IMG/VR virus record: IMGVR_UViG_3300044910_000145
Location: 1 to 37,149 of that record
Direction: 5' to 3' (one strand)
Length of the DNA stretch: 37,149 nt
Origin: a virus
Below the pieces are notes generated by a model that made no database searches, was not told the origin of the DNA, and saw nothing but the letters and a program-made list of their open reading frames with translations. A program made the translations under genes and the position numbers. Below, one piece after another: positions 1,571 to 36,804 of this stretch (position 1 is its first letter; each line of letters begins with the position of its first letter).

Positions 1571-4500
1571 TTGGCAGATCAAAATATAGTAACCAACATA
1601 ACTGCGACGGCTAATTTTTCTAGCCTAACAGCGCAGTTACAAGCGGTTACTTCGCAACTCTTAAAACTCCAAGCTACAACAATTGGTTTAAACAAAAACC
1701 TAACTAGCCAGGTTGGAGTCATGAATCGTCAGTTTGACGAAACCATGCGCTCCACTGGCCAGTTTTCTAGACACTTCGTAACATTAACATCAGACGTATC
1801 TAAGTTTGGACAAAATTTAGATAGCGGAAGAATGAAGCTCGGCCAGTATTTTAGAACATGGCAAGGGCATACACAAAAAACCAGCTCTTTAGTTAGAGAC
1901 CTTGCTAAGCAGCAGGTAATGCTTGAGAATTCAATTATTCAGCCTCTTGGTAAAAATGCACAAGGCTTAATGCAATATAACGTAATGGTTCAATCTGGAC
2001 TAGACGTTACAAAAAATAAATCAGCTCTTCTAAGACAAGAGCTTGCCATCATGAACAAGGTAATGATGGATGGATCAAATCAGCTTATTAACTGGGGTAA
2101 GAATACACAGTGGGCTGGTCGTCAGTTAACAGTAGGATTAACTGTACCTTTAGCAGCATTCGGTATGGCTGCAGCAAAAGCATTTAGGGAAGCAGATCAA
2201 GAGTTAACTCGTTTAACAAAGGTTTATGGAGGATTAACTGCAACATCCAGCGCTGATCTTCTTCAGGTTCGTAAAGATGTTATGGCGGTATCAAGAGAAT
2301 TAGCTTCTGGGCTAGGAGCAAACTTTACAGAGACTATTGCGCTTGCCGCAGATATTGCTGCTACTGGTAAAGAGGGTGCAGACCTAATTGACTCAACAAG
2401 ACAAACAACAAGACTTGCAATTCTTGGTGAAGTAGATAGACAAGAGGCCATGAAGGCTACACTTGCAATTCAAACAGCATTTGGTCAAAATACAATGGAG
2501 CTTGCCGAATCCATTGACTTCTTAAACGCAGTTGAAAACCAGACATCTACAACTCTAGATGATTTAGTAACTGCTATTCCAAAAGCAGGTCCCGTAGTTA
2601 AAGCCCTTGGAGGAGACGTACAGGATCTTGCACTTTATTTAACTGCTATGCGTGAAGGTGGAATTAATGCATCAGAGGGTGCTAACGCATTAAAGTCTGC
2701 ACTAGCATCTGTCATCAACCCTACCAAGGTTGCAAAAGAAATGTTCATGGGCTTCGGCATAGATCTGTCTGGCATTGTAAATAAAAATGCTGGAAATCTA
2801 ACTGGAACAATTATGGCACTCAAGGACTCACTTGACTCACTGGAGCCGCTACAAAGGGCAAGAGCAATTGAACAGCTATTCGGCAAGTTCCAATTTGCTA
2901 GAATTAATGCATTGTTTGAAAACCTAGGAAAAGAAGGAAGTCAGACTCTTCAAGTTCTAGATCTTATGAAAGCAAGCACACAAGATTTGGCAGCAATTTC
3001 AGCACGAGAATTAACAGCACTTACAGAATCTGCATCTGGTAAATACAGAAGAGCACTTGAATCTGTAAAGGCAGAACTTGCAGTAGTAGGAGAGCAATTC
3101 TTAAAGGTAGGAGCATTTGTATTAAATGCTATAGACGGAATTTTAAAGTTTATTGGAAATTTACCAGGACCAATTAAAGCAATCCTAGGATTTATTGGCG
3201 GGCTTACAGCAATTGCTGGTCCTATAATCATGCTTACTGGTGTGCTTGCAAACTTCTTTGGGTATATCATCAAGGGAATATTAGCCCTTAAAAACATTGG
3301 TAAGGGTGGAACTGGCTTTAAATTATTAACACCAGAATTGATGGCAGCATCTGCTGCAGCTAAAACAGTAGAGCAATCATTCTATAGTGATACAAAGGCT
3401 GCTGCAACATTCTCAGATGCAGTCATGACACTTGCAGCTTCATTCGATAAGCTAAAGCAAAGCGCAATGAGCTCAACTATTGCTACATCAAATAGTATGT
3501 CTACAGTTGCTGGAAATCCAGTAATTGGTGTTGGCGGAAGAATAGTAGATAAGAATAACCCTCTTATAGGAAAACCATATTCTAGAGACATGTCTCATAT
3601 GATTCCAACTGGATCAAAGACGCCACAACAAAGAGCAGACGAAACAATATTTTCCACAGTTCCTGGGCCAAAGCCAGTAAATCAAAGAATTTCAAATGCT
3701 CCACAAGTTTACATGGACACGGACCTTGCAAAAATTCCAGGAGTCACATCTGTTAATGGAGTTTCAACTGGTGTAGTTGCGGCAGAAGCGGCCAAGTGGC
3801 ATTCAATGACCGCAGCAATTGCAATGCAATCTAAAGAAGAATTAGCATTACTGAAGACGGAAGTAGCAGCAACAGGAACAGTAACTGCTTCTCTTACAGA
3901 TTCATATCAAGCACTTTTGCCACAAATGACAAAGATAACTACTCTTGCAGCACAAGAAACATCTTTAATCGTTGATCAATTAAAGGCTGGCAAGATTACA
4001 GTAGAAAACGCTAGAGCAAAGATATTTGCATTAAATGCTCAAGTTGAAGCAATGATGGCACAAACAGCTCAAGGAGTTGCAACTGCACAAGCAAGAACAT
4101 TAAGCTTGACTACAGTTCCATTGACAACACAGCCAGTTGTAAGCGCAGCTGGAAAGTCAAATATGAAAGAGCTGTTCCACAAAACAGAAACTTCTAAGCT
4201 TATAGATTCAATTGCTCGTGGCCTAGGTGTTAGAACTTCTGGTGCTGGATATAGCATACACACAACAAAGCCTAGATTTAATACTGGTGGAATTGTATAT
4301 GACCCATCAAAGCATGGCTCAATAGTCCCAGGCCCATCAAATATTGATTATGACATGGTGCCAGCAAGACTTCCAGAGGGCAGCTATATATTAAATCAAG
4401 AAGCTTCACGTAATAACCCTGATTTAGTTAGAATGGCATCAAATAAATATAACCGTGGCGGCAAAGTTATAGATGCAATTCTTACACCTAGAGAGACTTA

Positions 4501-7500
4501 TTTTGATCCAGAGTTTACAGCAGCCAATAAGCCTTTACTAGATAAAGCTAATAGCGGTTCAAGAGTTCAGCTAAGAAATAATGGTGGAATTCTTGGCGGA
4601 TTAGTAAGGGTTGGTAGAAGAGGATATGGTAATGACATATTCCCAGACAAACAATACTCTTTAGCAGAACTCAGAAAAGCTGAAGAATACATAAAATCTC
4701 TTACAGGAAGAGATTACGAAGATAGAAGAAGACCAGGGCTAATTTTAAATAATGCTACAGCTCTTCTAGATAATGTTCCTGGAATGACTCCAGAAAAAGC
4801 AATTGCTGAAGCAGTTAAAGTTGATGGTATAGCAAGGCTAGATAGAATTGTGCGTGGAGATGCATCTAAGGGATATGCTGCAATTCACAATGCATATCTA
4901 AAAGAACACTATCCAGACCTGATACTTGATGAGAAAAAGCCTAAGAGACAAAACGTAAATGCTAGGAATAGAAGCCTACTAGCAAAAATGCTAGAGGTAA
5001 GACTGTTTACATCTGGATCCACCCAATCTTTTGCGGATAGAGCGCATATCAATCCAATTAATTTATCTACTGGACATGCTGGATATTTTGGAGAAGCTGG
5101 TCACGATAGATTTAATTCAGTAGGAAATAATATCAGAAGAAGAACTGGTGCCCCTGATCGATCACCAGTTTTTGCTGATGAGGCAGTAGCACACGCAGAT
5201 GACATAGCCAAATCATTTGGGTTTACAGATGCAAAAGAATTTAAAAAGAATCTTCCATTTATAAGAGACTATATTAGAACTGGGGTATGGAAAGGTCCAG
5301 GTCCAGTACCACTTGGTGTTGTTAAGTATGTAAGAGGCAACATACAAGTAGCTACAAACAAAGTAGTTCCTAGAAGAGCAGATGGCAGATTTGCTCCACA
5401 GGCTGCTAGAGCCGTAAAGCCACTAATGGCTATGGTTGCTGGTGCACGTAGAAATGCTGGAGGAATAATTGGTGGCTTAGTAAAGCCAGGTAAACGAAAT
5501 TATGGCAAACTGTTCCTTGGAATGCCAAGAAGATTTAAGGATGTAGAAGCACAAAGAAAAGCTAGACTTAGCATGGAAGAGATTGATGCTGGGCTAAAGG
5601 CTAGCCGATTTGCAGCAATGCCTCCAACAGATTTTGGCAAGTTGATATCTCCATCAACAGGAAGAAGCTTCCCTGTTCCAGGTATTGGAGGATTGTATGA
5701 AAAAGCAGACGGGACTAAAGTATTTGTTAAGCCAGTAATGGATGAAACTGCAGCCCTTGCAGAGCAACGTGCAACTGTTATTGCAAGAGACGCTCATAAT
5801 TTAACTGCTCCAAGACAAGAAATTAGAACCATGATGGACCCTACAGATCCATCTGGTAAAAGAAAGTTGCTTGTATTAGAATCTCCTTATGACGAAGCTT
5901 TTTCAAAAAAGTCGGGAGTATTTTCAAGAGAAGATTATTTCAAGCAATTGGTTGCAGCTAATTTAAGAGGCGATAGAGATTTAAGTAGAGATAATCTTTC
6001 TGGTAGCACACTGGCTGATGTAGGAACAGCTGGAGTATTTAAGATGGCCTCTGGTAAAAGAGCTTACGAAGAAGAAATGATTTCAATGAAAGAGCAAGCA
6101 CGTATAAACTTGCTTGGAGTAAAGGGTGGAGCTAAGAGATTCTTTGCAGAGTCTACATTGGCAATTCCAAAGGGCATGACACCTAAACAATATCACAAGG
6201 CAATGATCGACGAAATTGATGACGTGCTTCCAAAACTAAAGTCTACAATATCTAGCTTTAAAGATTTAACTCCAGATGAGGCTAAAGTTTATGCCGCAAT
6301 GATTAAGAGACTAGAGGATGGAAGAAGAGTTAATTGGGAAGAGTTCCATGGAATTCATTCCTCAGTTAAAATTGCACAAGCTAAGGCATTAACCCCAGCA
6401 GCATTAAAGAAGCTAAAGGATGAGGCTGAATTAAGAATACGTCAAAGAGGCCATGCTGTATCTTTAAGTGATAATTCTTTCAAGACGCCTTTAAATGGGT
6501 TTAACGGAGGCGGAGTTATTGGTAACGTCCTAAAGGGACTAGCCATGAAAAGAATTGGCGCAGGGTTTGGTCCAACTGGAGCTCCTAAGCCTAGCATGTA
6601 TGAGTCTGCACCATGGGGAGTAAACTCTCTATCAATCAAGATGGCAGAGACACTATTTGCTGGAACTGGATTAAGAAAGAATACTCAAAAATTACTTTAC
6701 GATAAGTTTGCGGCGGCAATGGCTAAAGAAAAGCCATTCGGATATGTTAAAGGTCCAGACGGCTCTTTAAGAAATGCCCTTGAGCCAGACTCATTAGACT
6801 CTGTCATAAGAATGGCTGCAAATAATCTAATGTCTGACAGAAAAGCTTTCATGCAACTATCTCCAATCGATAGGGATATTCTAAAAAAGAAATATGTAAA
6901 TTTTGATTCTAAAAAAGATACCCCTATAACAGATGATCTTAAGAAAAAGATATTTGGTATTGATGGTAAAAGAGAAATGGGTGGACCAGTATCTCCAGGA
7001 CAAAGTTATTTGGTTGGAGAAAAAGGTCCTGAAATATTTAGCCCACAACAAAGTGGTAAGATATTACCAGGATTTATGCTAGGTGGTATAGTAAAATCTA
7101 GTAAAATAGGCTACGGAGAAAAGGTTACAGATGTTAGCCAAGTCACATCTAAAGAGCATGCAAATCGTCTTCTAAAATCAGGAAATCCAGGACAAAGAGC
7201 AATAGGACAGGCTTACTTAAACAATCTTAAGATAGCGCCAGTGCCAGTTGCTGCTGCACCCATCAAGCCTGGTCCGTTGTCCGTTGGAACAACTTCATTT
7301 GTTGGAAACAAAGGGGTAGTAACAAACGTTCCTACACTTCAAGGATCACTTCCATATGCGCCTGGAATAGGTATGTTTAACCCAATGCTTAATAAGCCGA
7401 TGGAATTATTAAAGTCGGCTTCAAAGCAAATAGAAATGTCATTGTATGCTTTAGGAATGAGCGTTAAAAAAGATGCTCTTATGGTAGGCAAAACATTAAA

Positions 7501-10500
7501 ATTCTCTGGAGACCAGATTGTAATTGGTGCAAGATTGATGCAGGATCAAATAAAGACATCAATTAATACTATGTCAACTGGTTTTAAATCTGTTGGGACC
7601 ATAGTAAGCAATGTTGTAAAGCAGACTGCTACTCAAATAGGAAATTCAGCAAAAGAAGCGGCTACAAGATTAAATGCACTGAGACAATCTTTGTTTAGTC
7701 CTCAGATAATTGCGCCAAGACCACCAGGTGCACTAGTAAACCCAGACAGAACATTTTTACAGAATTCAAGGCAGTCGTTTGCTGCAAACGCAAAGTATAG
7801 TACAACAGCAATGCTTAACCCTATTCAATACGGCAGATCAGTTTTAAATAAGCCAATAGATCCAAACAAGCAACCTGGAATGATGGGCGGAATGGTTGGC
7901 TCCATGGGTGGAATGATGGTTGGAGGAGCAATTGGAGAAAGATTAGGCGGACAAACTGGAATGATGATTGGCTCCATGGGCGGAATGATGGCAGGACAAG
8001 CAGCTGTAACAAAAGCAGGTGCAGCATTTGCTGGTCTATCAGCATCTATGGGAGGAGCTGGTTTTGGTGCAACTGCAGTTGCAGCAGCAGGATTAATTGC
8101 ACCAATCGCAGCCGTAACTGCAGCGGTAGCCGCTGGTGTTATTGCATGGAAGCACTATAAGCGTGGGCAAGAACTTAATATATCCACATTTGGAATGACA
8201 GCAGAAGCTGCTAAAAAGGCAAACCTTAGATTTACAGACTTTGGTTCAAAGATTAAAGACACAATACAAGACTCAAAGGACATGGCCGCTGCAAATAAAA
8301 TGATTTATCAAAGTATGAAGGATGGTGGCACACCATTCCAAATGACAATTGCAGAGTACAAAAAACTGAAAAAAGAAGTTAAAGAAACCTTTAGCGAGCA
8401 GATTGCAGCTTTAAATAGACAGCCGTCAAATAAGGTTCCAGATGCAGTACGTAGAATTAAAGAGCAGCTTATAGCTGCGGGAATGTCTGCGGATGAAGCT
8501 ACTAAAAAGATATTTACTATGCTTCAGCTTTCAAATAAAAAAGATCAGTCTATAACTGCAACAATGGGCAACAACAGCTTTAAGAAAATATTAGATCCTC
8601 AAACTGCCGCAGTTTCTGCAGTAGAAAGTTTTGGAAGAGACACTAAGGATCAAGGAAACAAGGAAAAGGCGGCTTCATTAAATACAGCTTTAATGGCAAC
8701 CGAAACTGGTATAAATGATTTAATAGCTAAAAGAGAAAGACTAGTTGCAAAGGATACTACTGGCAAGATCAAATCTTTGAGTTATTCAGAAGCTGAAAAA
8801 ATGATGCTTGATCAAATAAATCAATCAAAAGAAGCTGGTAAGGTAATTACTCAAGGAACAATTGACGAAATGGCAAAGACAAATCCAGAAGTCAGAAAGA
8901 TGATTAATGAGTCTGATACAGTCGTAAGCGTATGGCAAAAAATTAGACTAGAGGCTCAAGGTTTTAATGGGGACCTTTCTCTTTTAAATGCAGCTCAAAC
9001 AAAATTTATTGCGGACGCTTTTGCAGCAATATCCAAGGTTGTAGTCCAAACAAATAGAAATGGTCTTTTAAAAGAGCAGTACGCAAACCTTGAAAAACTA
9101 GATAAGCAAATTAAGAGCTATACCAAAGCACTTAAGGGACAGTCAGTTGCAGAACAAATATCTGATAGAGATAGAGTAAAGGCTTTAAATAAGCAGATAG
9201 ATGCTATTAATAAGCTTGCCGAAGCAAGAAAGAAAGCTTTAGCAGCACAGCAAGCAGATGCTGATCTAGGAAGACAAATTGAAAAAACTAGACTTGAAAT
9301 GCAAAATGCTGCTGCAGTTGGAGACACAGCAAAAGAGCAAAGCCTAAGAATTGATCTAGAGTCATTAACTTCACAACAGCAAACAGAAGCTCAGATGAGA
9401 GCTATAGATAAAGCTGCCGAAGCAGGCATGGCTCCTTTAAAGGCTGCGATAGAGGCTATATCTAATAAGCAAGAAAAGCTTTCTGACTCAGCAGCACTTG
9501 CAGGAGAAAGTCTTGATAAGTTAAAGGCTAAATATGATAAGCAAGATGCTGCAATTAAAAAAGTAAATGATTCCATGACTGCACTTTATGCTAATGCATC
9601 AGCAGCTGGAAAGAGTATTGAAGATTATGTAAAGACAGTAACTGGAGCAGAAGAAGCGGCGGGGCTTGTTGCTGCATCAGAAGCAGCCACTGGCGTAAAA
9701 ATGCCAAGATATACACAGGGTCCAGACGGAAAACCAGTTCCTGTTTCACCAGAACAAAATGCCTTGGCTATTTTGGCAAAATCTACTGGCCCAGCAAATG
9801 CTGCTTTAGCATCCGCAATTGGTGGCGGAGCAACTCTTCAAGATGTTGTTAATGCTATTAGTGGAGATTTTAGAAAAAATTCAACAGGTGAAAAGGCTCC
9901 AAAAAATACTGATAGAGTGGGAGGCCCTACGGGAAATCAGGTAACAACAAACCCTAAAACTGGAGACAAGGAAGTTCTAAAACCAGGAATTTTTGAAACA
10001 AGCCTATTAAGCTTTAAGAATAACGGAAGAGGGCTGTCTGCTGGATCAATTGTTAAAGTTGGTCCTAAAGGAGACATACCTGCAGTTATAACAGATGACA
10101 TAACTAAACCTAAAAAGAGTGGCGAATTAAAAATTGTAGCTGTAGATCTAGCTCAAATGAGAGCGCAGTTTACAGTTCATAAAGCGCAGGGCGGTGTAAT
10201 CCGTGGACCAGGAAGCAATACATCTGATTCTATTCCAGCCATGCTTTCAGACGGAGAGTTTGTTGTAAATGCAAAATCAGCAATGTCATTTGGCTATGGA
10301 AACCTAGAAAGTATAAATAGAATGGCAGCAGGCGGAAGAGCATCAAGATTTAACTTTAATAGAGAGATGTTTGATGTTAGAAGCGCAGGATCATCTTCAT
10401 CATCTTATGTAGTAAATCAAACTATATACGCATCAGACGGAATGGATGTAGAAGCGTTGTCAAATATGATTGTTCGTAAGGCAGAAGTTGTTATTGGACA

Positions 10501-10549
10501 AAAGGCTAAGCTTAATGTTAAAATGGTAGGACAGGGGAAAAATATATAA
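1571..10549 (+). CDS. giant tape measure protein with inserted domains
   Basis: 2992 residues, far above the 700-1700 common for the family; TTG start at 1571 with AAGGAG just upstream (1558-1563). Residues ~170-520 look like the TP901-type tape measure core, followed by a hydrophobic segment (~534-577) expected to enter the host membrane. From ~905 to ~1840 the chain alternates Gly-Gly-hydrophobic motifs (near 905, 1005, 1297, 1644, 1804, 1838) with globular inserts; one (~1365-1600) carries kinase-like residues K1387, E1398, D1470, N1475 and D1483. Residues ~2104-2195 are a Met/Gly-rich glycine-zipper region, ~2500-2675 are coiled coil, and ~2874-2935 hold a second Gly-Pro-Gly / GEFVVN motif frequent in tape measures. 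Role: sets tail length and fills the tube; the inserts may be ejected into the cell. The family assignment is firm, the insert functions are not. Confidence 0.93.
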   Translation: MADQNIVTNITATANFSSLTAQLQAVTSQLLKLQATTIGLNKNLTSQVGVMNRQFDETMRSTGQFSRHFVTLTSDVSKFGQNLDSGRMKLGQYFRTWQGHTQKTSSLVRDLAKQQVMLENSIIQPLGKNAQGLMQYNVMVQSGLDVTKNKSALLRQELAIMNKVMMDGSNQLINWGKNTQWAGRQLTVGLTVPLAAFGMAAAKAFREADQELTRLTKVYGGLTATSSADLLQVRKDVMAVSRELASGLGANFTETIALAADIAATGKEGADLIDSTRQTTRLAILGEVDRQEAMKATLAIQTAFGQNTMELAESIDFLNAVENQTSTTLDDLVTAIPKAGPVVKALGGDVQDLALYLTAMREGGINASEGANALKSALASVINPTKVAKEMFMGFGIDLSGIVNKNAGNLTGTIMALKDSLDSLEPLQRARAIEQLFGKFQFARINALFENLGKEGSQTLQVLDLMKASTQDLAAISARELTALTESASGKYRRALESVKAELAVVGEQFLKVGAFVLNAIDGILKFIGNLPGPIKAILGFIGGLTAIAGPIIMLTGVLANFFGYIIKGILALKNIGKGGTGFKLLTPELMAASAAAKTVEQSFYSDTKAAATFSDAVMTLAASFDKLKQSAMSSTIATSNSMSTVAGNPVIGVGGRIVDKNNPLIGKPYSRDMSHMIPTGSKTPQQRADETIFSTVPGPKPVNQRISNAPQVYMDTDLAKIPGVTSVNGVSTGVVAAEAAKWHSMTAAIAMQSKEELALLKTEVAATGTVTASLTDSYQALLPQMTKITTLAAQETSLIVDQLKAGKITVENARAKIFALNAQVEAMMAQTAQGVATAQARTLSLTTVPLTTQPVVSAAGKSNMKELFHKTETSKLIDSIARGLGVRTSGAGYSIHTTKPRFNTGGIVYDPSKHGSIVPGPSNIDYDMVPARLPEGSYILNQEASRNNPDLVRMASNKYNRGGKVIDAILTPRETYFDPEFTAANKPLLDKANSGSRVQLRNNGGILGGLVRVGRRGYGNDIFPDKQYSLAELRKAEEYIKSLTGRDYEDRRRPGLILNNATALLDNVPGMTPEKAIAEAVKVDGIARLDRIVRGDASKGYAAIHNAYLKEHYPDLILDEKKPKRQNVNARNRSLLAKMLEVRLFTSGSTQSFADRAHINPINLSTGHAGYFGEAGHDRFNSVGNNIRRRTGAPDRSPVFADEAVAHADDIAKSFGFTDAKEFKKNLPFIRDYIRTGVWKGPGPVPLGVVKYVRGNIQVATNKVVPRRADGRFAPQAARAVKPLMAMVAGARRNAGGIIGGLVKPGKRNYGKLFLGMPRRFKDVEAQRKARLSMEEIDAGLKASRFAAMPPTDFGKLISPSTGRSFPVPGIGGLYEKADGTKVFVKPVMDETAALAEQRATVIARDAHNLTAPRQEIRTMMDPTDPSGKRKLLVLESPYDEAFSKKSGVFSREDYFKQLVAANLRGDRDLSRDNLSGSTLADVGTAGVFKMASGKRAYEEEMISMKEQARINLLGVKGGAKRFFAESTLAIPKGMTPKQYHKAMIDEIDDVLPKLKSTISSFKDLTPDEAKVYAAMIKRLEDGRRVNWEEFHGIHSSVKIAQAKALTPAALKKLKDEAELRIRQRGHAVSLSDNSFKTPLNGFNGGGVIGNVLKGLAMKRIGAGFGPTGAPKPSMYESAPWGVNSLSIKMAETLFAGTGLRKNTQKLLYDKFAAAMAKEKPFGYVKGPDGSLRNALEPDSLDSVIRMAANNLMSDRKAFMQLSPIDRDILKKKYVNFDSKKDTPITDDLKKKIFGIDGKREMGGPVSPGQSYLVGEKGPEIFSPQQSGKILPGFMLGGIVKSSKIGYGEKVTDVSQVTSKEHANRLLKSGNPGQRAIGQAYLNNLKIAPVPVAAAPIKPGPLSVGTTSFVGNKGVVTNVPTLQGSLPYAPGIGMFNPMLNKPMELLKSASKQIEMSLYALGMSVKKDALMVGKTLKFSGDQIVIGARLMQDQIKTSINTMSTGFKSVGTIVSNVVKQTATQIGNSAKEAATRLNALRQSLFSPQIIAPRPPGALVNPDRTFLQNSRQSFAANAKYSTTAMLNPIQYGRSVLNKPIDPNKQPGMMGGMVGSMGGMMVGGAIGERLGGQTGMMIGSMGGMMAGQAAVTKAGAAFAGLSASMGGAGFGATAVAAAGLIAPIAAVTAAVAAGVIAWKHYKRGQELNISTFGMTAEAAKKANLRFTDFGSKIKDTIQDSKDMAAANKMIYQSMKDGGTPFQMTIAEYKKLKKEVKETFSEQIAALNRQPSNKVPDAVRRIKEQLIAAGMSADEATKKIFTMLQLSNKKDQSITATMGNNSFKKILDPQTAAVSAVESFGRDTKDQGNKEKAASLNTALMATETGINDLIAKRERLVAKDTTGKIKSLSYSEAEKMMLDQINQSKEAGKVITQGTIDEMAKTNPEVRKMINESDTVVSVWQKIRLEAQGFNGDLSLLNAAQTKFIADAFAAISKVVVQTNRNGLLKEQYANLEKLDKQIKSYTKALKGQSVAEQISDRDRVKALNKQIDAINKLAEARKKALAAQQADADLGRQIEKTRLEMQNAAAVGDTAKEQSLRIDLESLTSQQQTEAQMRAIDKAAEAGMAPLKAAIEAISNKQEKLSDSAALAGESLDKLKAKYDKQDAAIKKVNDSMTALYANASAAGKSIEDYVKTVTGAEEAAGLVAASEAATGVKMPRYTQGPDGKPVPVSPEQNALAILAKSTGPANAALASAIGGGATLQDVVNAISGDFRKNSTGEKAPKNTDRVGGPTGNQVTTNPKTGDKEVLKPGIFETSLLSFKNNGRGLSAGSIVKVGPKGDIPAVITDDITKPKKSGELKIVAVDLAQMRAQFTVHKAQGGVIRGPGSNTSDSIPAMLSDGEFVVNAKSAMSFGYGNLESINRMAAGGRASRFNFNREMFDVRSAGSSSSSYVVNQTIYASDGMDVEALSNMIVRKAEVVIGQKAKLNVKMVGQGKNI
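7892..7991 (+). repeat. 28-base imperfect direct repeat in the glycine-zipper region
   Basis: Two near-identical 28-base units (7892-7919 and 7964-7991) lie 72 bases, or 24 codons, apart inside the tape measure gene. They encode the repeated peptide M-[VI]-G-S-M-G-G-M-M and differ at only two bases. They probably reflect in-frame duplication of a membrane-active Gly/Met segment. Confidence 0.7.
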
Positions 10550-19019: not shown

Positions 19020-19820
19020 ATGACAAACGATTTAAAGTGGATGCTGTCTTCGGACCAGCAGTTCCCTTATCAAGATGACAAGATGATCGAGCTTTGGTTT
19101 AAAGTAATGAAGTGGTTTAAGCCAGACGTCGTTGACTACCTTGGTGACACAGATGATCAAGCATGTTATAGCAAGTATACAGAAGGTCGTTCAGCAGAGT
19201 TTATGCAGCTTCATAAAAATGACAGTAGAGATTTAATTGTTCCTATGATGCGCCATGAAGCAAAAGGAGCCAGAGATTTTTATGCTAAGACAAGAGAGAT
19301 GCTACCTAACGCTCAGTTATTTTCTGCTTTAGGCAATCACGATATACGCATCTTTAATTATGTTGATGCCAAGCTTCCAGATTATATTAACGAAGTAACA
19401 CCAGAAGCATTGTGGTCTTTAGACTCACTTGGGTATGAATACATTTATTATGATGAGCTTCCTAAGCGCCGCTTTGGAGACATACATGTACACCACGGAC
19501 TCTCAATTGCGGCAACTGGGTCTGCAAGAAAAGACATGGAAGATATGCAGGTATCTTTGATTAGAGGTCACTCACACAGAATTGCTTCACATATGGTTAC
19601 ATATGAGTTAAGAAATAATGGTGCAGGAGAAACTCTTCGTGGATATGAAATTGGTCACATGTGTGATGAAAAGGGTCCAGGAATGAAGTACACTCAACAT
19701 CACGATTGGCAAAAGGGGTTTGCGGTAGCACACATCGTAAATGATTATCCTCATATTCAAATGATCCATGTTTCACCAGATTACTCATGCGTTGTGGATG
19801 GAAAGTTCTTTCAAGTATGA
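19020..19820 (+). CDS. calcineurin-like metallophosphoesterase
   Basis: 266 residues; ATG 19020 with AAGG six bases upstream. Metallophosphoesterase motifs appear in order: S-S-D12-x-Q (motif I, usually D-x-H), YLGDTDD (motif II), ALGNHD (motif III), HVHHG and RGHSHR (the late His motifs). These bind two metal ions in phosphodiesterases and DNA/nucleotide phosphatases. The length is typical of phage members. As first gene behind the leader promoter, it probably acts in nucleotide or nucleic-acid processing early in infection; the substrate is not readable from sequence. Confidence 0.82.
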   Translation: MTNDLKWMLSSDQQFPYQDDKMIELWFKVMKWFKPDVVDYLGDTDDQACYSKYTEGRSAEFMQLHKNDSRDLIVPMMRHEAKGARDFYAKTREMLPNAQLFSALGNHDIRIFNYVDAKLPDYINEVTPEALWSLDSLGYEYIYYDELPKRRFGDIHVHHGLSIAATGSARKDMEDMQVSLIRGHSHRIASHMVTYELRNNGAGETLRGYEIGHMCDEKGPGMKYTQHHDWQKGFAVAHIVNDYPHIQMIHVSPDYSCVVDGKFFQV

Positions 19821-36003: not shown

Positions 36004-36076
36004 GCCCTTGTAGCTCAGTGGATAGAGCAGCAGGTTTCTACCCTGCGTGTCGGAGGTTCGATTCCTTTCAGGGGTA
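36004..36076 (+). tRNA. tRNA-Arg (TCT)
   Basis: Cloverleaf with 7-bp acceptor (GCCCTTG with CAGGGGT, containing two G-U type pairs), perfect D stem GCTC/GAGC, perfect anticodon stem GCAGG/CCTGC with loop TTTCTAC (anticodon 36037-36039, TCT), and a T arm GGAGG TTCGATT CCTTT with two G-U pairs. Discriminator A, no CCA. It reads AGA/AGG, and AGA is the dominant Arg codon in the window. The G-U pairs suggest drift from a host tRNA. Confidence 0.9.
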
Positions 36077-36105
36077 CTAAATAAATTATGACAAGGAGAA
36101 TTAAA

Positions 36106-36804
36106 ATGTTAAATGTAGATGACGCAAAAGGCGTTGTTGTAGTTGCTGGAGCTAGCTATGGGTCTGGTAGGCAGACAGCCATTAGGTTTGCAGAAGAAGG
36201 ATTTAATGTAATTGCATTAGCAAGAACTGAATCTGCAATAAAAGATTTTCCCGATGAATATAAGGATAAAATAATTCCTTACAAGATAGACTTGTCAAAT
36301 AAGGAAGAGATAATGGAGTTTGGAAACTATGTTTCTGAAATGAATATATCTATACTTGTAAACGTTGCTGGAGGGGGAATAGAGTTTGTTCCAGTGGATC
36401 AGTCAAGAAGTAATAGTCTGGAAGAGTGTTTTGACATAAATGTATTTTATGTGTTTAATATGTCAAAAATATTAATACCAATATTTAAGAAAAATAAAAA
36501 GGGGCACATAATAAATATAACTTCTACAGCGGCAGATAACATTTTTCCAGGAAGCAATACATACTCTGCAGCTAAGAAAGCTAATTCTGTAATAACAGAG
36601 TCATTAAGATTTGAGTTACACCAAGACAACATCCGAGTAACAGAAATTGCACCAGGAACAATAAATGGTAGGCAATACAGAGAAGTTGCATTGTCTAGCT
36701 CAGATGTAGCTGAGGCAGTATTTTGGGTTTCTCAGCTACCAGAAACAGTTAATATAAATAAAATAAGTATGGCTCATACAAGAAGTATAGATAGGCCATG
36801 GTAA
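36106..36804 (+). CDS. short-chain dehydrogenase/reductase (SDR)
   Basis: 232 residues. ATG 36106 is chosen because AAGGAG (36093-36098) lies seven bases before it; an ATG at 36088 precedes that site. Classical SDR motifs: nucleotide-binding GASYGSG, NVAGGG, the catalytic Ser in NITSTAAD, and Y-x3-K in YSAAKKA. So it is a complete NAD(P)H-dependent oxidoreductase, slightly short at the C-terminus. Substrate unknown; it may modify a metabolite, sugar or lipid. Cargo gene, probably acquired from a bacterium. Confidence 0.88.
   Translation: MLNVDDAKGVVVVAGASYGSGRQTAIRFAEEGFNVIALARTESAIKDFPDEYKDKIIPYKIDLSNKEEIMEFGNYVSEMNISILVNVAGGGIEFVPVDQSRSNSLEECFDINVFYVFNMSKILIPIFKKNKKGHIINITSTAADNIFPGSNTYSAAKKANSVITESLRFELHQDNIRVTEIAPGTINGRQYREVALSSSDVAEAVFWVSQLPETVNINKISMAHTRSIDRPW

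Follow-up and report, generated by a model that had tools for sequence, protein, structure and literature searches.

The window analysed here is the whole of an IMG/VR virus record of 37149 bases. Its longest listed ORF, at positions 1571..10549 on the + strand (2992 aa, with a TTG start as listed), encodes a tape measure protein (TMP); the product matches PhageMin_Tail (PF10145) in Pfam at 7e-26, over the cut-off, and the tape measure family phrog_10030 among the PHROGs at 3.3e-121. As expected of a TMP gene, this very long gene is followed by tail genes; between 10549 and 18128 three of the five ORFs scanned match tail-protein PHROGs, and beyond the tail genes come genes for helicase, primase, DNA polymerase, recombinase and terminase. 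A metallo-phosphoesterase gene (19020-19820, match 3e-54) lies shortly after the tail genes. Directly 5′ of the TMP gene are two small ORFs (906-1238 and 1298-1567), in a position described as a frequent site of a tail-assembly chaperone frameshift pair (PMC7911831). Within the TMP, residues 1-640 (1571..3490, +) form a conserved N-terminal region, and there are two strongly hydrophobic stretches, one at residues 535-573 and the other, a possible membrane segment, at residues 2163-2194 (8057..8152, +).

A module with a predicted kinase fold occupies about residues 1330-1625 of the TMP (5558..6445, +), as supported by homologue alignment, an AlphaFold2 model, Foldseek and VIA-align. The preliminary description had placed a kinase-like domain inside the TMP at residues ~1365-1600; the placement held, and the extent proved too narrow. 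The five residues it had singled out were found exactly where it put them when checked against the sequence, with codons at nt 5729 (K1387), 5762 (E1398), 5978 (D1470), 5993 (N1475) and 6017 (D1483). The putative N-lobe nucleotide-binding part, assigned from its position, comprises G1364, S1366, the motif GIGGLY and the strand-3 lysine K1387 (5660..5731, +); it is followed by the helix-C glutamate E1398 (5762..5764, +) and, as placed by the model and the alignment, by the catalytic loop and metal site, with R1466, D1468, D1470-x4-N1475 and D1483-x-G1485 (5966..6025, +). The interval from D1470 to D1483 is 13 residues versus 23 in Escherichia coli HipA; this very short spacing, already noted in the preliminary description, counts against the kinase reading.

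When the TMP was shuffled 1000 times, 30.4% of the shuffled sequences contained a loose K...E...D-x4-N...D-x-G pattern one or more times; the bare kinase motif is no more than chance expectation, and the case for a kinase rests on conservation and fold. Relatives were collected from viral contigs in several searches (23 loci, 79 loci from 87 relatives, 80 kept of 343 and 80 kept of 143), the loci of which often share contigs. After identical sequences had been collapsed and partial domains (under about 231 profile positions) dropped, there were 120 distinct kinase-domain sequences including that of the window, with a minimum pairwise identity of 36% and a median of 52%. K1387, D1468, D1470, N1475, D1483 and G1485 were the same in all 120. 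E1398 was present in 118 of the 120, a count slightly favoured by the search in which 80 of 343 were kept, which used a pattern containing this residue; the other two sequences (L017 and L018) have Q. The score of L018 is shared by L019-L021. The D, N and D residues were part of no search pattern, and the alignment of homologues that the preliminary description had suggested shows that they do not vary freely. An earlier set of 55 sequences gave the same picture. The core residues are not alone in their invariance, as 46 of 296 positions were invariant in an alignment of 52 sequences; by simple arithmetic, the chance that K, D, N, D and G would all fall among the invariant columns is about 1 in 10,000, and it thus seems unlikely that these five are invariant by luck. 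Nei-Gojobori values of dN/dS for the domain ranged from 0.056 to 0.212 across 45 pairs, many of which had a dS greater than 1. We conclude from these comparisons that the domain is under purifying selection, with an unvarying putative active site.

The AlphaFold2 model of the module, built from the 52-sequence alignment, had a pLDDT of 91.0 and a pTM of 0.87. Its N-lobe contains strands at model positions 28-32, 45-48 and 54-60, the last of which carries K1387 (model position 58); E1398 (69) lies in the helix at 63-78, which is followed by strands at 88-93 and 103-110. A helix at 124-137 precedes D1470 (141) and N1475 (146), after which there are two very short strands, D1483 (154) and then helices. 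The order of elements in the model is that of a kinase, with a minimal catalytic-loop hairpin, and the strand-3 lysine, helix-C glutamate, D-x4-N and metal aspartate are each predicted to lie in the right secondary-structure place. When the model was compared with the PDB by VIA-align, the best match was to a CotH spore-coat kinase (5jd9, Z 12.3, rmsd 3.8, 215 residues aligned; 215-219 residues of the module in the CotH matches), followed by CtkA (3akk, Z 11.2), type II phosphatidylinositol 4-kinases alpha and beta (PI4K-II, Z 10.4 over 212 residues), a Golgi casein kinase (4kqb, Z 9.6) and HipA (3tpb, Z 9.2). There were 65 chains among 1000 at Z of 8 or above, and the best 50 rows are what we take to be kinases or kinase-like folds throughout. 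Identity in the CotH and PI4K-II rows was only 8-13%, and these proteins also differ from the TMP module in having another context and in that the module lacks a Pfam match to them. Foldseek against the PDB gave no match at E <= 0.001; CtkA ranked first (E 1.3e-3) and HipA third (E 2.5e-3), with TM of 0.35-0.38, and JNK second with a TM of 0.22. A two-lobed kinase core is thus predicted by the model and by VIA-align, Foldseek against the PDB being weak by itself. The structure prediction and fold comparison that had been recommended therefore yielded a kinase-like core, and the likeness to HipA and PI4-kinases proposed at the time was recovered by VIA-align and not by Foldseek at that threshold.

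Foldseek against predicted viral structures gave six matches that passed 0.001, all to large proteins of phages or a haloarchaeal tailed virus: an uncharacterised protein (2.2e-5), an ADP-ribosyltransferase of Mycobacterium phage Onyinye (2.4e-5), another protein annotated as an ADP-ribosyltransferase (1.1e-4), a portal protein (1.3e-4), a protein annotated as a PI3/4-kinase (1.6e-4) and a Haloarcula tailed-virus protein (1.7e-4). Given these matches, other large proteins of tailed viruses probably contain kinase-like folds as well.

Searches by sequence placed the module in no known family. The kinase domain had no match at E 0.001 or better in Pfam, PHROGs, NCBIfam or the PDB sequences; the best PHROG, phrog_34901, was reached at 0.0085 by 2 of 10 members and is of unknown function. 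A weak Pfam name that recurred, NanE (best 0.0064, 5 of 15 members), was rejected, being under the cut-off and in conflict with the model. Neither the domain nor its relatives matched HipA_C (PF07804) in Pfam, there was no Pfam match to the PI3/PI4 kinase family PF00454, and both families were absent from two related phage records as well; the CotH family was likewise missing among the Pfam matches, so that CotH is a match in fold only. The TMP module shares with HipA kinases the core order of K, helix-C E, D-x4-N and metal D, and differs from them in the missing PF07804 match, the shorter D-to-D interval and its embedding in a virion protein. As to a HipB-like partner, the PHROG scan of neighbouring ORFs put the name of a regulator on none of them, several being of unknown function; the domain itself is internal to the TMP. 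With hhalign, a single HipA sequence gave a probability of 0.2%, and a profile of ten HipA sequences gave a P of 0.55, which is not significant, with a best alignment that fell, unprompted, in catalytic register at conserved HipA core positions (K1387 with K181, E1398 with E203, D1470 with D309, N1475 with N314). The divergent subset A3 gave a P of 0.56 and aligned over the catalytic-loop segment alone; the 120-sequence profile gave an E of 0.073, with 7 of 200 column-shuffled controls scoring at least as high, in an alignment that covers the N-lobe only and ends before the catalytic loop. The profile likeness to HipA is therefore suggestive only. As modelled, the module is kinase-like, near HipA, PI4K and CotH in fold and a member of none of them.

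The module was sought beyond uncultured viruses. In named phages, tblastn with the kinase domain of the window gave no match at E 0.01 (at a limit of E 10 there were two, with E of 3 and 9), and a search with a distant member of the family gave none; plasmids gave none up to E 1. Pattern-based scans of GTDB genome contigs produced 51 pattern matches with the kinase domain and 84 with the TMP N-terminus, none of them a relative. Among viral contigs, the TMP N-terminus was present in 215 of 219 kinase-positive ORFs, always with the kinase downstream of it, and the other four were cut by a contig end or started shortly before the domain; with later loci added, the count was 292 of 298 of the kinase-positive ORFs fetched. 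In one locus (L168, 6764-7930) the kinase ORF has only 80 residues ahead of the domain, even though the locus extends further upstream, which may reflect a frameshift, a split gene or an assembly error. As it is without a significant library match and absent from the named phages, plasmids and GTDB contigs searched, we concluded that the kinase module forms a family not charted so far, which occurred here in uncultured phages and, with few exceptions, within TMPs. Relatives of the TMP N-terminus do occur in named phages, and because most of these 326 records are from Streptomyces (127) and Gordonia (105) phages, the sequences suggest an actinobacterial host.

The region of the TMP around the kinase has a modular appearance. 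A Gly-rich linker, GGILGGLVRVGRRGYG (residues 1005-1020; 4583..4630, +), is followed by a helical module of unknown function, module A (residues about 1020-1293; 4628..5449, +), with invariant RAH and GxAxHDxFN motifs, and then by a second linker similar to the first, GGIIGGLVKPGKRNYG (residues 1297-1312; 5459..5506, +), just before the kinase. Downstream of the kinase is module C (residues about 1648-1798; 6512..6964, +), and the TMP linker recurs towards the C-terminus at 10244..10264 (+), as LSDGEFV in IPAMLSDGEFVVNA. Module A accompanied the kinase in 68 of 69 ORFs, a link inflated by the small number of distinct sequences and the enrichment of the set for kinases; its model was poor (pLDDT 68, 11 sequences), gave no VIA-align match above Z 4.0 and is uninformative about the fold. 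In a different branch, the kinase is flanked on either side by TMP linker copies (PAxLxPGEAVIP in L087); by a strict linker pattern, 21 of 117 distinct sequences have a copy within 150 aa upstream of the kinase, 10 have one downstream and 7 have both. The kinase starts in different TMPs mostly at about residue 740-820, 990-1080 or 1260-1410.

Comparison with close relatives indicated that the kinase comes and goes. The TMPs of L185 and L186 are 93% identical to that of the window over the N-terminal 643 aa, yet have no kinase, and that of L191, 84% identical in the N-terminus, also has none; all three keep module C. The match of the window to L185 and L186 ends at residue 1020, the end of the first linker. 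In L185 (3001 aa) residues 1-1020 of the window are matched at 85%, about 260 unmatched aa then replace residues 1020-1648 (module A and the kinase), and the match resumes at 60%. Among the best 80 of 587 N-terminal relatives, 48 have a stop-bounded TMP ORF, 23 with the kinase and 25 without, and the kinase is visible in 18 of the 32 cut ORFs. A tree of 43 N-termini, in which L185 falls inside the starred set of four that contains the window, requires at least four gains or losses of the kinase, forced by starred branches; it was a quick tree with SH-aLRT support only, limited to stop-bounded ORFs of at least 1500 aa and with identical N-termini left out. The kinase-bearing ORF of L050 (7985-14980; at least 4066 aa, cut by the locus end) has the TMP N-terminus and, downstream of the kinase, a CHAP peptidase (2.9e-6 in Pfam) and LysM (8.8e-12). 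Among nine middle or variable regions scanned, Pfam matches were found in L050 only, and the NCBIfam names were all under their cut-offs. A constant part with exchangeable modules, a trait of polymorphic toxin-like effectors, is thus present here. In the sequences compared, the kinase is an exchangeable module, varied in position and missing from close relatives, which provides the best indirect support for a role as cargo. The preliminary description had not noticed this exchange; its interpretation is supported as regards a kinase-like fold with a nearly invariant active site inside a TMP, whereas ejection into the host as an effector is still a proposal.

Tape measure proteins are usually seen as rulers and formers of the DNA channel, and sometimes as cutters of the cell wall. 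We propose, as a reading that we consider rather probable, that the module is a phosphotransferase with a kinase fold, from a new HipA-, PI4K-II- and CotH-like family, carried as exchangeable cargo in the TMPs of a group of uncultured siphophages, ejected with them, refolded and active in the host. The module would be stretched or unfolded in the tail tube along with the rest of the TMP, would leave with it when the tail tip opens, and would refold inside the infected cell, where ATP is available; there, very early in infection, it might phosphorylate a target of the host and so, for instance, weaken its defence or alter its physiology. In phage JBD30 a density about 20 Å wide inside the tail tube has been attributed to a trimer of TMPs, and the TMP is proposed to be expelled, to enter the membrane and to refold into a DNA channel (PMC11445458); the lambda TMP adjoins an inner-membrane complex during injection (PMC13190303). 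As the in-tube density of JBD30 is only about 20 Å wide, a folded kinase should not fit the tube. If the TMP were trimeric as in JBD30, each virion would hold about three kinase copies, which would favour a catalytic role over a stoichiometric one. The kinase also lies N-terminal to the hydrophobic stretch at residues 2163-2194, a weak point of the idea that it would reach the cytoplasm, and the searches brought up no substrate, partner gene or cultured member. More broadly, though we think it less likely than not, we also entertain the idea that the TMPs of this phage group are a general scaffold for effector delivery, so that the siphophage ruler would inject enzymes with or ahead of the DNA. 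Between a constant N-terminal ruler and mostly constant C-terminal parts, the middle of the TMP would then hold a series of exchangeable modules set among linker repeats; these would include several effectors, the kinase being one, and each would pass through the tail in unfolded form and fold again inside the host.

Other explanations lead away from ejected protein-kinase cargo. The fold leaves the reaction unfixed, and since lipid kinases (PI4K-II) and further atypical kinases are among its closest structural matches, the module might carry out AMPylation or act on a lipid or small molecule instead of a protein; nothing specific speaks against this, other than that K/E/D/N/D is the phosphotransfer arrangement, and we judge it rather unlikely. 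Slightly less likely in our estimation is that the kinase acts in the producing cell, late in infection or during tail assembly, with tail proteins or its own TMP as possible substrates, and is afterwards a passenger in the virion or clipped off. Such a role would have plentiful ATP, late synthesis of the TMP and the chance to fold before packing into the tube, but no result of the analysis favours it directly; the module is swapped or lost among close relatives that keep the N- and C-terminal parts of the TMP, which is not readily compatible with a function in assembly.

It seems very unlikely that the module is a pseudokinase without activity, or a spacer, that serves to lengthen or stabilise the TMP. 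The module does add about 300 aa, and longer TMPs generally go with longer tails (PMC11126660), but a spacer needs no K/D/N/D, and these active-site residues are found in 120 of 120 sequences down to 36% identity. We give hardly any credence to a chance motif in a helical tape measure with no domain at all; the frequency of the pattern in shuffled sequences would allow it, whereas the strand-rich N-lobe of the fold model, the invariance and the modular gain and loss all argue against it. The ejected phosphotransferase remains the reading that we prefer.

Some features of this arrangement have precedents. The TMPs of TM4 (a peptidoglycan hydrolase motif), T5 and phiIPLA35 (a muramidase) likewise bear an extra enzyme domain (as cited in PMC6116005 and PMC13277306); those enzymes act on peptidoglycan, whereas the module in the window has a kinase fold and would depend on ATP. 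Contractile injection systems (CIS) have effectors related to TMPs, such as Tme and Sle1, which also combine a TMP-like body with a functional domain that can be swapped in the Sle1 group (PMC11126660, PMC13277306), but their particles are bacterial, tail-like and without viral DNA. The Tme domain is an endonuclease and Sle1 has no recognised enzyme motif; the word 'kinase' does not occur in the available text of the Sle1 paper (PMC13277306). Polyvalent proteins and MuF- or portal-fused effectors include host-modifying enzymes, kinases among them, that are thought to be injected; they are not tape measures, a term used 0 times in the main text of the two reports (PMC5512222, PMC9503650). Both muralytic TMP domains and the effector domains of TMP-related CIS proteins are thus already known, and what is new here is a kinase in a TMP and its modularity; the preliminary description knew of no earlier account, which agrees with the open-licence PMC literature, in which we found no such case. 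If our proposal is true, a conserved kinase module that comes and goes between close relatives would turn the tape measure into a vehicle that brings in signalling enzymes at infection, and the module would offer a concrete way to test whether a tail tube can carry a globular enzyme in unfolded form that then becomes active in the host. It also adds a kinase-like family without a match in Pfam, PHROGs or NCBIfam.

Near the other end of the window, at 36088-36804, a gene matches a FabG-like 3-oxoacyl-ACP reductase at 1.1e-41 and is possibly an auxiliary metabolic gene; a tRNA-Arg at 36004-36077 adjoins it.
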